Position numbers and translations under genes: made by a program
Shown: positions 55,466-61,290 of the stretch, in pieces
How positions within the stretch are numbered: the stretch's first letter is position 1
Layout of the letters: the number at the start of each line of letters is the position of its first letter
Origin: Paludisphaera borealis
GTDB lineage: Bacteria; Planctomycetota; Planctomycetia; Isosphaerales; Isosphaeraceae
Length of the DNA: 64,000 nucleotides
Direction: 5' to 3'
NCBI RefSeq assembly: GCF_001956985.1
Contig: NZ_CP019082.1
Location: 3,286,001 to 3,350,000, forward strand
The notes under the pieces: model-generated
Database searches by the model: none
The model's input: the letters and a program-made list of their open reading frames with translations, nothing else
Told to the model about the DNA's origin: nothing

Positions 55466-55759
55466 ATGTCATACGGCGGAAATGCCGATCCCACGGGCAC
55501 GCAGGTCACGTTTCTGGACCAGACCGGGGCCAAATCGGTCAAGGCGGTCATCGCATTCAGCGTGCCTGTAAGCCGGATCATCCCGAACATCATCACCAAG
55601 ATGAACTTGCCGGCGACCAGCCCCGACGGCCAGCCGATGAGCTACGCCCTCGACCATAAAGAGGGAGGTAGACGGCTGCTGGAGACCTGGACGCTCGTTG
55701 AAGCCGGCATCCACGACGGCGACCATCTGATCGTCTATCCCGAGGTGGTCGCCGGCTAG
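55466..55759 (+). CDS. Ubiquitin-like beta-grasp modifier protein
   Basis: A 97-aa protein with a beta-grasp pattern: TQVTFLDQTGAKSVKAVIAF (strand-turn-strand), a helix (SRIIPNIITKMN), then SYALDHKEGGRRLLETWTLV and DGDHLIVYPE. It ends in PEVVAG, so its natural C-terminus is glycine, ready for adenylation without processing. YukD/EsaB-type Ub-like proteins look similar, but the E2, E1 and JAB genes directly downstream argue for a conjugated modifier. cgaggagg precedes ATG 55466; the longer frame to 55343 has no homologous character. Confidence 0.85.
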   Translation: MSYGGNADPTGTQVTFLDQTGAKSVKAVIAFSVPVSRIIPNIITKMNLPATSPDGQPMSYALDHKEGGRRLLETWTLVEAGIHDGDHLIVYPEVVAG

Positions 55760-55817
55760 CGGTCCGGCGTCGCCTCCTCGCAACGAAGGCCCGATCCGAC
55801 TCCCTAACGCGAGAGGA

Positions 55818-55839
55818 CGCGCCGCCGATCGGCGGCGCG
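55818..55839 (+). promoter_or_regulatory. 22-bp perfect GC palindrome occluding the E2 start region
   Basis: The stem runs 55818-55828 with 55829-55839 (self-complementary gcgccgccgatcggcggcgc at its core). It ends 4 bp before the E2 ATG, in place of a purine-rich ribosome-binding site. It could limit translation of E2 and the genes beyond, or act as an RNA processing barrier. No T-tract, so not a classical terminator. Confidence 0.5.
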
Positions 55840-55843
55840 CGGC

Positions 55844-56659
55844 ATGGCCATGCACGATTCGCCTCGAACCCGACGCCTTCACAACGATCTGGCCGCACTC
55901 GACCGCGTCCGCTCGGAAAGCTCGGTCTTCGAATTCCAGACTTCGGGAAATCCACCGCATCATTACCAGATCGCTTTCAAGGGCAAGGGCCTGTGGCGCG
56001 ACCGGGGCAAGGTGAAGTTGATCCAGACGCATCGGGTCGAGATCAAGCTCGGCTCGTCCTACCCCCGGACGATCCCGGAAATCCGCTGGCTGACGCCGAT
56101 CTACCACCCCAACATCTCCGAAATCGGCATGGTCTGCCTGGGAGGTTATGGCACGCACTGGGCCCCGAGCGTCCAGCTCGACGAGCTTTGCACGATGCTC
56201 TGGGACATGGCCCGCTACCACAACTACGACATCCGCAGCCCCTACAACCGCGACGCCGCCCTGTGGGTCGCCAACCAGACGACGATCCTGTTCCCGACCG
56301 ACCCGCGCTCGATCCGCGACCTCCGCGCGGCCAAGGGGTGGCTCGATCCTGACGGTCGATCCGACCATCCGAAGCCGCTGGACGACGCCAAGCCGAAGTC
56401 GGCCTGGCGGTTCCTGTCGGCGGCTTCCGACGGGCCGACGCCGGTCTCGCGGGTCCGCCAGTTCATCGAGCGGTACGGCCGGCCGCCGGACGACGCCCCG
56501 GCCTCGCCCCCCGAACCACCATCCCGGACCGCCGCCGCCGTCGCCGACGGTGACGACGACGGGATGGTGATTCTGGAGACCACCACCACCAGCCCCGCGG
56601 CCGAGAGCCGCGCGGTGGAACCGTCGCGAGGGGAGGAAGACATCCTCTTCATCGATTGA
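55844..56659 (+). CDS. E2-like ubiquitin-conjugating enzyme
   Basis: A 271-aa protein with an UBC-like fold at residues 1-150: KVKLIQTHRVEIKLGSSYPR, then IRWLTPIYHPNISEIGMVCL with the HPN motif (88-90) and the catalytic Cys98 (VCLGGYG), and LDELCTMLWDMARYHNYDIR, where canonical E2s have HPN-(x)n-C-(x)n-W. It should accept the modifier as a thioester from E1. After residue 160 comes a region ending in an acidic, low-complexity tail (VILETTTTSP ... EEDILFID). It overlaps the next gene (TTGA). Start at 55844 or 55850; neither has a strong RBS. Confidence 0.87.
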   Translation: MAMHDSPRTRRLHNDLAALDRVRSESSVFEFQTSGNPPHHYQIAFKGKGLWRDRGKVKLIQTHRVEIKLGSSYPRTIPEIRWLTPIYHPNISEIGMVCLGGYGTHWAPSVQLDELCTMLWDMARYHNYDIRSPYNRDAALWVANQTTILFPTDPRSIRDLRAAKGWLDPDGRSDHPKPLDDAKPKSAWRFLSAASDGPTPVSRVRQFIERYGRPPDDAPASPPEPPSRTAAAVADGDDDGMVILETTTTSPAAESRAVEPSRGEEDILFID

Positions 56660-57870
56660 CGAAGCCCGACCATCCCGACCCATCGACGCCCGACGACGAC
56701 GTCCTGCGGATCGACGACGACGACCGCTACGGCCGGCTCCGGCTGATCTCATGGTGGCGGCAAGAACGCCTGGCGGCCGCCAAGGTGCTGGTCGTCGGCG
56801 CGGGGGCGCTCGGCAACGAGGTGATCAAGAACCTGGCGCTCGTCGGCCTGGGGACGATCTACGTGATCGACCTCGACGACGTCGAGCCCTCGAACCTGTC
56901 GCGGTCGGTCCTCTTCCGGGCGGCCGACGGCGGCCTTCCCAAGGCGCGCGTGGCGGCCCGACGGGCCGGCGAGATCAATCCCGACGTCCGGTTCGTGCCG
57001 ATGCGCGGCGACGTGCTCAACGACGTCGGCCTGGGGCTGTTCGCCGAGGTCGACGTGGTCATCGGCTGCCTCGACAACCGCGAGGCCCGGCTCTGGGTCA
57101 ACCGCCAGTGCTGGAAAACGAGCACCCCGTGGGTCGACGCCGGCATCCAGGAAATTCAAGGCGTGGTCAAGGTCTTCACGCCGCCGCATTCGGCCTGCTA
57201 CGAGTGCGCGATGACCGAGCGCGACTACCAGCTCTTGAACCTGCGGTACAGTTGCCCGCTGCTCAAGCGCGACGAGATCCTGGCGGGCAAGGTTCCCACC
57301 GCGCCCACGATCGCGTCGATGATGGGGGCGCTCCAGGTGCAAGAAGCGCTCAAGCTGCTGCACGACATGCCGGTGGCGGGGGGCTCGGCGTTGGTCTTCA
57401 ACGGGGTCGGCAACCAGTTCTACACGACCAAGCTGCCGTTCCGCGACGACTGCCTGAGCCACGAGACGTACCCCGAGCCGATCGCGCTTCCGCTCGGCCG
57501 CGGGGCGACGGTCGCCGCGCTGTTCGACGCGGCCCGGCCCGCGCTTTCCGGCCCGCTCCACCTGACGCTCGACCGCGAGCTGGTCGAGGCCGTCGAGTGC
57601 CCGCGCTGCGGGGGCCGCGAGGAGGTCATGCGGCCGAGGACGCGGGTCCGCCAGGCCGATGCGGTCTGCCCGAAATGCCGCGAGGCCGGACGCCCGGTGG
57701 TCGTCAGCCGGATCGACGAGGGGACTCCCCTGGCCGGGCGGACGCTGGCCGAGGTCGGCGTTCCGCCGTTCGACGTCGTCCGCGTCGATGAAGAAGACGG
57801 TGACGCGCGGTTCTTCCTGCTGGCCGGCGACCGCGACGGGCTCGCCTCGGGATGGGGGCTCGACTCTTGA
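56656..57870 (+). CDS. E1-like ThiF/MoeB-type activating enzyme with C-terminal zinc region
   Basis: A 404-aa protein. The adenylation domain shows VLVVGAGALGNEVIKNLAL, LDDVEPSNLSRSVLFRAADG with conserved Lys96 (GLPKARVA), and Asp140 (GCLDNREARLWVN). A candidate catalytic/metal region follows: Cys181, Cys184 (CYEC), Cys200 (YSCPLL) and TIASMMGALQVQEALK, like MoeB/Uba3. C-terminally, CPRC (315-318) and CPKC (338-341) form a probable zinc site, then a beta-rich tail (RTLAEVGVPPFDVVRV) perhaps binding E2. Start TTG at 56656 overlaps the E2 stop. Confidence 0.9.
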   Translation: MTKPDHPDPSTPDDDVLRIDDDDRYGRLRLISWWRQERLAAAKVLVVGAGALGNEVIKNLALVGLGTIYVIDLDDVEPSNLSRSVLFRAADGGLPKARVAARRAGEINPDVRFVPMRGDVLNDVGLGLFAEVDVVIGCLDNREARLWVNRQCWKTSTPWVDAGIQEIQGVVKVFTPPHSACYECAMTERDYQLLNLRYSCPLLKRDEILAGKVPTAPTIASMMGALQVQEALKLLHDMPVAGGSALVFNGVGNQFYTTKLPFRDDCLSHETYPEPIALPLGRGATVAALFDAARPALSGPLHLTLDRELVEAVECPRCGGREEVMRPRTRVRQADAVCPKCREAGRPVVVSRIDEGTPLAGRTLAEVGVPPFDVVRVDEEDGDARFFLLAGDRDGLASGWGLDS

Positions 57871-59249
57871 GCGGCGACGACATGGTCTTCGGCGAGATCA
57901 AGTATCGCGAGCCGGCGCGGGTGAAGCGTCCCGACCGCGACCCGCGGCACGCCTGCGTCGCCTGCCAGACCCCCGGCCCGAACGACCTGCCGATCTTCCT
58001 CGACCGGGGCCCGGCCGACCTGATCGAGCGTCACGCGCTCTCCGACGTCTCGGTCGAGCTGGGGGGCATCCTGCTGGGCAAGGAGTGCGTCGACCCGGCG
58101 ACCGGCGACCACTTCGCCTGGATCACCCAGGCCCTCGAAGCCAAGCACTACGCCAACACCCAGGCGAGCTTCACCTACACGCACGACTCGTGGGAGGAGA
58201 TCACCCGCGACCGCGATCGGCTGTACCCCGACCTCGACATAGTGGGCTGGTATCATACGCATCCCAGCTTCGGGATCTTTCTTTCACATCACGATCTGTT
58301 CATCCACCAGAATTTTTTCGCGCAGCCGCTGCAAGTCGCTTACGTCGTCGACCCGATCCAGTCGACCCGTGGATTCTTCCGCTGGTCCGACGGCAAGATG
58401 GTCCAGGTGGGCGGATTCCATCTGTGCGCCGAGCGGACGGAACGGCTGGCGCTCTCGAAGCTGGCCAACGATCTCGAAAACCTCCCCAGCCCGTCGGGGC
58501 AGGGGGGCTCGGCCCTCTCACCTCGCCTTGAGGCGGAGCTCATCAAGATGCTCAGTCGTCCCGCTCATCCCCACGCCGGCGGCCCCGCCGAACGGCTGTC
58601 GATCATGGCGCTGCTCGCGATGCTCGGCAGTTTTCTCGGGGTGGTCGGCCTGGCCGCCGCCCTCTGGCTGTTCCAGCTCAACACCCGGCTCGGCGAGCAG
58701 ACCGAGGCGCTCGTCGCCCTTCAGCGTCACCTCGACGACGCGGCGGGGGGCCAGCGGCTGGCCGTCGACACGTTGCTCGACAAGGTCGGGGGCGAAGACC
58801 CGAGCAAGTTCATCGCCCGCTACGAACGGACCGCCAAGGCCCGCGACGAGTCGCACAATCGGCTGCTCGCCGAACTCGCGATCAACGAGACCCTCGGCCT
58901 TCGCGCCAAGGAGCTCGCCGCCGACCTCGACGCCGCCCGCGCCAGCCTCAAGGAGTCCGAAGCCGACGCCAAGGAAGCGCCCGCCCTCCGCAAGCGGCTC
59001 GGTGAGCTGGAGAAGGCCAACACGCTCCAGGAACGCGAACTCGAAGAGAAGCGGCCGATCGTCGAGGCGACCGACGGCGAGAAGGCCAAGGAGCTGGTCG
59101 ACGCGCTCAAGCTCTACCGTACCACCACCTGGGCCGGCGCGCTCGCCAGCTTGCTCCTGGGGCTGACCGCCGTTTACTTCTATTTCAAATCGCTCCCCGA
59201 ACCCCAGTCGACGATTCAACCCAGCCCGACCACGCATCGGATCGTTTGA
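57867..59249 (+). CDS. Membrane-embedded JAB/JAMM isopeptidase with coiled coil
   Basis: About 460 aa. A CxxC (CVAC) lies near residue 30. The JAB1/MPN domain has the complete JAMM signature: Glu64 (VELGGILLGKE), His130-x-His132 (GWYHTHPSF), Ser140 and Asp143 (LSHHD). A transmembrane helix follows at about 246-270, then a coiled coil to about 420 (ELEKANTLQERELEEK) and a second TM near 427-448. JAMM proteases cleave isopeptide bonds to remove ubiquitin-like tags. The start is TTG 57867 overlapping the E1 stop, or ATG 57882. Catalytic residues are intact. Confidence 0.9.
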   Translation: MSGDDMVFGEIKYREPARVKRPDRDPRHACVACQTPGPNDLPIFLDRGPADLIERHALSDVSVELGGILLGKECVDPATGDHFAWITQALEAKHYANTQASFTYTHDSWEEITRDRDRLYPDLDIVGWYHTHPSFGIFLSHHDLFIHQNFFAQPLQVAYVVDPIQSTRGFFRWSDGKMVQVGGFHLCAERTERLALSKLANDLENLPSPSGQGGSALSPRLEAELIKMLSRPAHPHAGGPAERLSIMALLAMLGSFLGVVGLAAALWLFQLNTRLGEQTEALVALQRHLDDAAGGQRLAVDTLLDKVGGEDPSKFIARYERTAKARDESHNRLLAELAINETLGLRAKELAADLDAARASLKESEADAKEAPALRKRLGELEKANTLQERELEEKRPIVEATDGEKAKELVDALKLYRTTTWAGALASLLLGLTAVYFYFKSLPEPQSTIQPSPTTHRIV

Positions 59250-60215: not shown

Positions 60216-60345
60216 GCCTCGGCGCGTGGCCCACTCGCCACTCGCCGGCGCGGGTTCCTCGAAACCAGCTTGAAAACGAGGTCGAGGGCGGGTCAACATG
60301 GTGGGTAGAGTTCCGCGGACGCACTCTGACCCACGGCGAGCCGAC

Positions 60346-61290
60346 ATGCGGACCACGATTGCGCTGGCTTTCCTGCTGATCGCGCCGGCCTTCTTGCACG
60401 CCCAGGACGCGGGCCCGACCGAGCCCTCGCCCGCGGCCGAGCCGGCGGTTCGGATTCGACGCGCGCCGGCGACGTCGCCGAAGCCCGCCGCCAGGGCCGG
60501 GAAGCGGCAACTCGACCCGGTCGCGCCGGGCGACGACGGCACATTTCGACCGACGGTCATCATCCGGCGCGGCACCTCGCAAGGGAGCGGCACGGTCGTC
60601 GCCTCGGTCGACGACGACACCCTCGTCTTGACCGCCGCCCACGTCGTCCGCTCCGAGGGGCCGATCCTCGTCGAGCTGCATCGCTACAACCTGGGGCTTG
60701 AGCGGCGGACGAACGCGCCGGGCCGCTGGCCGCGCCGGGTTCCCGCCCAACTCGTCGGCGCCGACGCCTCGGCCGACGTGGCGGTCCTCCGGGTCCGCCA
60801 GATGGTCGCCTTGCCGTACGTTGCGAAGCTCTCCGAGGACGACCAGGACGCCTTGCCCGACGACTCGATCCTGACCTCGGTGGGGATCGACCTGGGCGCG
60901 AAGCTGTCGAGCTGGAAGACCGAGCTGGTCGAGACCGCCTCGTTTCAGCTCAACGAGAGCGACGTCGACCGTCCCTTCCTCATCACCGACAAGATCCCCG
61001 AACACGGCCGGTCGGGGGGCGGCCTCTTCACCGGGAAGGGCCGGCTCGTCGGCGTCTGCGTCGGCCACGCCGAGATGATCCAGGGTCGGCGGATGGGGGT
61101 CTTCGCCTCGATCGACAGCATCCACCGCATCCTCCGCGAGCACGACCTCAACGCCGTCGTCGATCGCTCGTCGGCCCGGCACGAGAAGTTGCGTCGCCCC
61201 CGCCCCGATCTCCCCCGCCAGGCACGCCGGCCGTCGTCCCCCTCTCTGACGCCGACCGAGGCGAGCGACCCGGCCCCCGCCCGTCCTTGA
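60346..61290 (+). CDS. Secreted trypsin-like serine protease
   Basis: A 314-aa protein with a signal peptide (ending AFLHAQ), a Pro/Ala-rich linker and an S1C-type domain: His in VLTAAHVV, Asp in ASADVAVL, and Ser in EHGRSGGGLF. No PDZ domain is visible; the tail (RRPRPDLPRQARRPSSPSL) is basic. The in-frame start at 60298 precedes the signal peptide, so I choose ATG 60346. Envelope proteolysis is likely. Confidence 0.87.
   Translation: MRTTIALAFLLIAPAFLHAQDAGPTEPSPAAEPAVRIRRAPATSPKPAARAGKRQLDPVAPGDDGTFRPTVIIRRGTSQGSGTVVASVDDDTLVLTAAHVVRSEGPILVELHRYNLGLERRTNAPGRWPRRVPAQLVGADASADVAVLRVRQMVALPYVAKLSEDDQDALPDDSILTSVGIDLGAKLSSWKTELVETASFQLNESDVDRPFLITDKIPEHGRSGGGLFTGKGRLVGVCVGHAEMIQGRRMGVFASIDSIHRILREHDLNAVVDRSSARHEKLRRPRPDLPRQARRPSSPSLTPTEASDPAPARP

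Follow-up and report, generated by a model that had tools for sequence, protein, structure and literature searches.

A predicted ubiquitin-like conjugation operon with a membrane JAMM protease in Paludisphaera borealis and related planctomycetes

Gene content of the operon

The 7.65 Mb genome of the planctomycete Paludisphaera borealis, which is in three contigs, contains the 64,000-nucleotide stretch analyzed here (contig NZ_CP019082.1, positions 3,286,001 to 3,350,000; "the window" below, position 1 being its first letter), in which four genes on the forward strand appear to form a ubiquitin-like conjugation operon. All four open reading frames (ORFs) were found, in the order ubiquitin-like modifier (UBL), E2, E1 and membrane JAMM protease (JAB), and each product matched a Pfam family above its cut-off: YukD for the UBL (3e-14), UQ_con for the E2 (8.1e-13), ThiF for the E1 (2.7e-54), and JAB for the protease (2.1e-7). 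An earlier note on the window had described four head-to-tail genes with E2/E1 and E1/JAB overlaps, a description that the ORFs, Pfam matches and residues bear out. The E2/E1 overlap is TTGA, and the E1/JAB overlap is 19 bases if the JAB begins at the ATG at 57852, or TTGA if it begins at the TTG at 57867, which the JAB starts of several relatives resemble. GAGGAGG stands directly upstream of the UBL gene. A promoter scan gave no promoter-like sites, three terminator-like sites were found against 2.2 expected, and no tandem repeats were found.

A scan of named genomes gave 324 encoding stretches, from which the best 80 loci were retrieved; counts out of 80 refer to these, which overlap partly with the genomes of an earlier set of 31 loci. 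Retrieval used two patterns, one itself ending in AG, and is partly biased toward that ending. The main-set alignments omit diverged paralogues (28 UBL, 28 E2, 27 E1 and 25 JAB sequences), and a second series includes paralogues (20, 24, 24 and 22 rows, respectively). The catalytic residues are invariant across all aligned copies, with paralogues omitted or included, and chance is excluded as an explanation for the intact, conserved four-gene set. The HPN motif and Cys98 of the E2, the Gly-ending UBL, the Cys/His zinc motifs of the E1 and the intact JAMM motif, all named in the earlier note, were confirmed in the sequence.

The UBL modifier

The UBL gene (55466-55759, forward strand) encodes a 97 aa protein of the YukD family (PF08817, 53.9 bits against a cut-off of 27) that ends in VVAG (codons 55745-55756), with Gly97 as the predicted conjugated residue. 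Its assignment as a probable beta-grasp protein rests on the YukD profile, and the UBL profile gave no matches at 0.01 among solved structures. Ala-Gly at position 97 ends the UBL body in all 31 loci read, of 35 matches to a whole-protein search. In these loci Gly97 is followed by 0 to 21 further residues that form a tail without evident similarity; in one paralogue a zinc ribbon and a membrane part come after the Ala-Gly. The same ending recurs in 80 of the 80 later loci, subject to the partial retrieval bias; 38 of these UBLs stop at Ala-Gly and 42 extend as a variable tail, one of them running off its contig. Two metagenome-assembled genomes (MAGs; loci L174 and L177) carry in-frame UBL-E2 fusions, and in L174 Pfam finds YukD and UQ_con within a single ORF. 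Because conservation is sharp up to the Gly and is followed by free variation, and because of the UBL-E2 fusions, the tailed and fused UBLs look like ubiquitin-style precursors that would need processing. The P. borealis gene terminates at Gly97, so trimming is unnecessary there. Comparison with five genomes of the same genus gave ratios of nonsynonymous to synonymous substitution rates of 0.06-0.10 for the UBL, 0.22-0.31 for the E1, 0.28-0.45 for the E2 and 0.37-0.51 for the JAB; like ubiquitin, the UBL is the most constrained, here of the four genes.

The YukD profile also raises the alternative that this is a type VII secretion accessory, in which the YukD protein would act non-covalently like EsaB, and the E1, E2 and JAB would be incidental. 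A weak T7SS_EccD similarity (5.7e-4) points the same way, as do two WXG100 matches barely above cut-off elsewhere in the genome, but these lie more than 1.7 Mb from the operon (WXG100 was searched, EccC was not), and among 14 control genomes the WXG100 profile matches 13 at a lax E-value and 1 above cut-off. Type VII secretion is not known to make use of an invariant C-terminal Gly, of linkage to E1, E2 and JAB genes, or of precursor tails. We regard this alternative as highly improbable, and the best reading of the sequences is that the operon is not part of such a system.

E1 and E2

The E1 gene (56656-57870, forward strand, TTG start) encodes a 404 aa protein with a ThiF/UBA adenylation domain and a candidate catalytic residue, Cys200, in RYSCP at 57244-57258. 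The loop glycines, Asp140, Cys181, Cys184, Cys200, Cys266 and His269 are invariant in the 27 main-set sequences and also when paralogues are included. Cys181 and Cys184, which form a CxxC, are probable zinc ligands together with Cys266 and His269, and a further four-Cys ribbon (315/318/338/341) is kept in at least 90% of 24 rows and in 60-90% in the main-set alignment. The protein has the ThiF domain, nucleotide loop, Asp, zinc CxxC and conserved Cys at the catalytic place that characterize an E1, and we infer that Cys200 is the catalytic cysteine. A structure model of the E1 (mean predicted local distance difference test score, pLDDT, 86) aligned with MoeB with a Z of 31.5 and a root-mean-square deviation (rmsd) of 2.2 over 230 aligned residues; ThiF was also matched, and UBA3 and SAE2 gave Z of about 29. 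The alignments with Uba1 and SAE2 extend to E1 residue 389-392, with an rmsd of about 4.7-8 for the whole-protein model, which is consistent with the C-terminal region, aligned with the eukaryotic E1 region in which the ubiquitin-fold domain (UFD) lies, being a candidate E2-presenting UFD. The best PDB sequence match was UBA7 (8oif; 2.6e-33), followed by ThiF (3.2e-28) and MoeB (2.8e-22).

The E2 gene (55844-56659, forward strand) encodes a 271 aa protein of the UQ_con fold, with HPN at residues 88-90 (56105-56113) and Cys98 in VCLGG (56132-56146). His88, Asn90, Cys98 and Trp106 are invariant in the 28 main-set sequences, also with paralogues included, and the protein has the attributes of a classical E2: the UQ_con fold, the HPN and a Cys at the catalytic position, all conserved. 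In the model (mean pLDDT 74) the helix/strand core is well predicted, the Cys98 region and tail less so, and the C-terminal tail, modeled with low confidence, is probably disordered. The best structural match had a Z of 11.7 and an rmsd of 3.4 over 129 aligned residues, to eukaryotic E2s, and among the 50 structure matches listed all were E2 entries or E2-containing complexes. Ubc13 was the best PDB sequence match of the E2 profile (2.2e-13). A comparison with known E1 and E2 folds, proposed in the earlier note, has in this way led from the E1 to MoeB, ThiF, UBA3 and SAE2, and from the E2 to eukaryotic E2s.

The P. borealis genome contains a single match of the E2 profile. A second E2-fold gene lies 3' of the membrane JAB in 20 of the 80 loci (UQ_con was found in both members scanned). 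HPN is present in 18 of these 20 proteins, and a Cys within 22 residues from the motif, the expected catalytic site, in 0 of 20; by sequence, these Cys-less second E2s appear comparable to ubiquitin E2 variant (UEV) proteins.

That MoeB and ThiF have the nearest E1 fold by Z could favor a sulfur carrier, in which the UBL would form a thiocarboxylate used to make cofactors or metabolites, in the manner of ThiS and MoaD, and some sulfur-carrier pathways employ JAB proteins. Such a pathway has no need for an HPN/Cys E2 with invariant catalytic residues, for UEV-like partners or for the RING protein described below; moreover, the C-terminus is AG, not GG, and biosynthetic genes numbered 0 among the few conserved neighbors identified. 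We consider a sulfur carrier very unlikely.

Membrane JAMM protease and candidate RING E3

The JAB gene (57852-59249, forward strand) encodes a 465 aa protein with Glu69 and the JAMM motif HTHPSFGIFLSHHD (residues 135-148, 58254-58295), which together have the deubiquitinase pattern E...HxHP(x6)SxxD. Glu69, His135, His137, Ser145 and Asp148 are invariant in 25/25 main-set sequences and in 22/22 rows with paralogues. A strong first hydrophobic segment (residues 251-269, 58596-58673) and a weaker second one (residues about 425-445, 59124-59186) enclose a charged, coiled-coil-like stretch; the second segment is under threshold in the P. borealis protein and over it in most relatives. The operon JAB is the sole match to PF01398 in the genome, where PF01398 was searched and the Prok-JAB profile was not. 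At least two JAMM ORFs occur in 21 of the 80 loci, the extra one typically being soluble, about 170-195 aa long, and located between E2 and E1.

About 204 kb from the UBL gene, the P. borealis genome encodes a 277 aa membrane RING protein (G000:C1:3136629-3137462) with a hydrophobic segment at residues 5-23 and a match to Prok-RING_1 (PF14446) of 43.1 bits (4e-11; cut-off 29.1). The genome scan with this profile was over cut-off in P. borealis and in 0/14 control genomes, 13 of which also give matches at a lax E-value of 10. Members of the RING family, about 280 aa long, are present near the operon in at least 51 of the 80 loci, a lower bound given a linkage window of up to 8 kb on each side and many incomplete loci. 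In most cases the linked gene precedes the UBL in Isosphaeraceae and follows the JAB in Pirellulaceae-type loci. An N-terminal hydrophobic segment is present in 52 of the 61 members, a loose RING pattern in 59 and a strict one in 42. Across 59 genomes, with E3 counted at E up to 1e-30 and no correction for ancestry, UBL and RING protein occurred together in 29, the UBL only in 2, the RING protein only in 4 and neither in 24 (Fisher 2.5e-10). These counts treat weak matches in three genomes (G034, G037, G058) as absent and, as present, one in G029 that ends at the contig end before the RING. In one genus both were absent in all three of the genomes sampled.

This Prok-RING protein is a candidate E3 of the system. 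An arginine-rich stretch after its hydrophobic segment suggests that the RING domain would lie on the cytoplasmic side. The earlier note saw no E3 and supposed that the E2 might be self-sufficient, which stands for the window but not for the genome, where the membrane RING protein is encoded. Its placement of the system at or near the membrane is backed by the hydrophobic segments of both the JAB and the candidate E3. A separate P. borealis region (G000:C1:749870-750271) resembles the RING-family profile over positions 27-155 (E 8.9e-9), a match that leaves out the RING.

These same hydrophobic segments might favor an Atg8-like lipid conjugation, which would account for a membrane JAB. The E2, though, is of the classical HPN type and is not Atg3-like, and the RING and UEV-like partners indicate protein targets; lipid conjugation is to our minds extremely unlikely.

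Acidic-hydrophobic motifs

Free E2 tails finish with (D/E)-hydrophobic(3-4)-(D/E). The P. borealis E2 has two such putative motifs, DGMVILE in the tail (residues 239-245, 56558-56578) and EEDILFID at the extreme C-terminus (264-271, 56633-56656), and acidic-hydrophobic motifs of similarly putative function occur in the N-terminal region of the E1 (VLRIDDDD, residues 16-23, 56701-56724) and at the N-terminus of the JAB (DDMVFGE, 57876-57896), all on the forward strand. The following counts are descriptive and not a test, because the patterns were written post hoc and the rows are related. The motif occurs in the last 14 residues of 63/76 E2 tails (shuffled tails: mean 0.2, maximum 2), with 98 copies over all E2 tails against a shuffled mean of 1.5, and in 17/20 UEV-like tails against 1/352 of the remaining conserved ORFs in these loci. 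A looser pattern occurs within the first 25 residues in 21/24 JABs (shuffles mean 0.6; background ORFs 2/352) and within the first 40 in 18/26 E1s (shuffles mean 1.65). We take the motif to resemble the SUMO-interacting motif (SIM), and propose by analogy that it may bind the UBL non-covalently.

Distribution and gene order

In a single-protein search UBL relatives were found in 31 of 59 genomes, comprising 31/37 of the same family and 0/22 from the rest of the class. Among 392 genomes sampled across the phylum, 36 are matched by the E2 profile and 31 by the UBL profile; the E2 accompanies the UBL in 30 of these 31, on one contig within 10 kb in 28, including more diverged cassettes with a UBL-E2 spacing of 5-10 kb. 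The 31/37 in the family and 31/392 in the phylum indicate that the system is patchy in the phylum and near-universal in the family. By label, 76 of the 80 loci are Planctomycetota, the others being Abditibacteriales, Wallbacteria, Riflebacteria and "bacterium". A search for the gene order across Planctomycetes, as the earlier note had advised, found UBL-E2-E1 followed by JAB kept in 64/80 loci; eight have UBL-E2-E1 with no JAB behind in the available stretch, three have the E1 first, and in five the E1, or both E1 and E2, are absent from the available stretch.

At E 1e-3 the UBL had no match among 50,697 phage records or 72,556 plasmid records, and among viral contigs 36 stretches fit a search pattern, of which 0 were confirmed. 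A mobile or phage origin was rejected, there being no UBL relative among phage, plasmid and viral sequences at the thresholds used. Flanking synteny within the genus is only partly kept, so resident status rests on distribution and not on place.

MAG contigs labeled Wallbacteria (L150), Riflebacteria (L182) and Abditibacteriales (L148) carry the UBL, through transfer or mis-binning; the order in L150 and L182 is E1-UBL-E2-short JAB. Some Isosphaeraceae have a second, longer cassette (L040:9791-17629; related loci L039 and L042), the content of which is given from L040, one of the three: a diverged UBL that ends in ITAG and is fused to a zinc ribbon and membrane part, an E1, a JAB, an FHA protein, a Prok-RING protein, a Prok-RING plus trypsin-like protease, and an E2 last.

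Relation to known systems

The earlier note had suggested that a gene set with a transmembrane, coiled-coil JAB might be undescribed, which does not hold in general. Burroughs, Iyer and Aravind reportedly predicted in 2011 prokaryotic YukD-like UBL conjugation with E1, E2, RING and JAB, work that is also believed to be the source of Pfam Prok-RING_1. The systems of that prediction, whose E1 reportedly bears a UFD, share with the P. borealis operon a YukD-like UBL, an HPN/Cys E2, an E1 with an added C-terminal region, a JAB and Prok-RING_1. No paper on this planctomycete operon was found in the open-access literature searched, most subscription papers lying outside that scope.

To our knowledge, Bil systems have no RING, and the bacterial ubiquitin-like systems that have been tested (Bil and the cyclic oligonucleotide-based antiphage signaling systems, CBASS) are phage defenses. 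The Bil system (BilABCD) likewise combines UBL, E2, E1 and a JAMM protease that exposes a C-terminal Gly (PMC11354881). BilA has two UBL domains, whereas the 97 aa UBL of P. borealis has one YukD domain, and BilB has a Cys-Glu-His-His set, whereas the positions 6, 8 and 13 residues after Cys98 in P. borealis are Thr104, Trp106 and Gln111 (PMC11354881). Judged by these two features, the operon is not Bil. Bub operons are bacterial and ubiquitination-like, with 544 identified and no phage protection shown; linkage to the regulators CapW, CapH+CapP or CapK+CapS is common among them (PMC13373217). The alternative of a Bil- or Bub-like operon for immunity or stress, which would place the UBL on phage or damage-related proteins, has in its favor the four identical functions, partial matches of the E1 to the PADLOC E1-E2 (2.1e-14) and BilD (1.7e-9) models, a weak match of the JAB to PADLOC JAB models (2.2e-4), and a weak match of the E1 to an NCBIfam anti-phage 6A-MBL protein (8e-13, far under cut-off). 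There were, however, no PADLOC matches for the UBL and one, at 0.059, for the E2, with BilA and BilB models absent from the matches listed for either, and the HPN-containing E2 lacks the BilB residue spacing. The operon's presence in most genomes of the family, the absence of UBL relatives from the phage and plasmid records and viral contigs at the thresholds used, and a near-invariant UBL, unlike an arms-race gene, also count against a defense role, which we consider unlikely.

The operon of the archaeon Caldiarchaeum subterraneum, whose cascade has been reconstituted in vitro, shares with P. borealis a UBL, E1, E2 and RING, and has a JAMM protease that processes a precursor with a tail; there the tail prevents E1 activation until the JAMM protease cuts it off (PMC5654768). 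It differs in having a ubiquitin-homologue UBL with GG and a nine-residue tail, a small RING and an Rpn11-like JAMM protease; the same source describes E2/E3 homologues in bacteria as sporadic and notes some complete operons (PMC5654768). Operon type 6d of Iyer et al. (2006) also clusters UBL, JAB, E1 and E2 genes, and differs in its other UBLs, an E2 described there as being without the classical His, and an alpha-helical partner (PMC1779556).

Predicted mechanism and significance

Taken together, the operon probably encodes a chromosomal, resident, reversible and membrane-associated UBL-conjugation system. The earlier note's reading of the genes as conjugation and deconjugation machinery has good support from conservation, folds and catalytic residues, and it stands as a prediction from sequence. 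Several points weigh against it, beginning with the lack of any known conjugate, thioester or substrate. Canonical E1s have a separate inactive adenylation domain and a large Cys domain, both absent here, and only 31/392 sampled planctomycete genomes have the UBL. For the candidate E3, the gene is unlinked to the operon in P. borealis, the two linked RING proteins that were scanned first scored 23.1 and 29.1 against the Prok-RING_1 cut-off of 29.1, and one genus, with a single 85% complete genome, has the E3 without the UBL. Inside the family, the uncorrected co-occurrence of UBL and E3 is weak (both 29, UBL only 2, E3 only 3, neither 3; p 0.02). The acidic-hydrophobic motif was defined after the sequences were seen, and its binding of the UBL is a guess. 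Finally, YukD, as characterized, is reported to be non-conjugated (PMC1779556).

In the predicted conjugation cycle, the JAMM protease would trim a tailed UBL to Ala-Gly97, and the E1 would adenylate Gly97 and load the UBL on Cys200, from which it would move to Cys98 of the E2. The membrane RING protein, as E3, might then bring the E2~UBL to targets in or near the membrane, on its cytoplasmic face, and the membrane-anchored JAMM protease would remove the UBL from them. The free ends of E2, E1 and JAB, through their acidic-hydrophobic motifs, may bind the UBL non-covalently in the way that SIMs bind SUMO. The sequences themselves show the genes and their residues, the conservation and co-occurrence, the hydrophobic segments and the presence of the RING gene. 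We infer these chemical steps, the E3 role, the motif partner and the substrates; because removal and probable ligation would both be membrane-bound, the substrates may be membrane proteins.

More tentatively, and with somewhat less than even confidence, we suggest a housekeeping, membrane-centered system that across its members would comprise E1, E2, UEV-like E2, membrane RING E3 and membrane JAMM protease, with tailed or fused UBL precursors under ubiquitin-grade constraint and a SIM-like docking code of E2, E1 and JAB, paralleling eukaryotic SUMO and ubiquitin systems and not Bil. A near-invariant, family-wide chromosomal system that has a classical E2 together with RING and UEV-like components in cultured genera (relatives occur in Paludisphaera, Singulisphaera, Aquisphaera and Tautonia) would make a non-defense role testable in bacteria. 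It also bears on whether the HPN E2, E2/UEV pairing, RING, precursor processing and SIM-like docking are pre-eukaryotic or arose twice.

Other genes

A 20S proteasome was considered as a sink and rejected. There is one PF00227 match in P. borealis, a 216-aa open frame, and since this profile also matches E. coli and B. subtilis, the match is presumably HslV.

Among neighboring genes, one family (f9) occurs in 16 of the 80 loci, mostly directly after the JAB, a place it does not occupy in the window; the member scanned (L116:11728-13044) is an M48 (CAAX-type) membrane peptidase. A transglutaminase-like family, of which one member was scanned (L139:6098-7735), was found in 17/81 loci; in the maps viewed it precedes the UBL. 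In the window, a trypsin-like protease is encoded at 60298-61290, just past the operon's next gene, and its relatives lie near the operon, elsewhere positioned, in two loci of the same genus.

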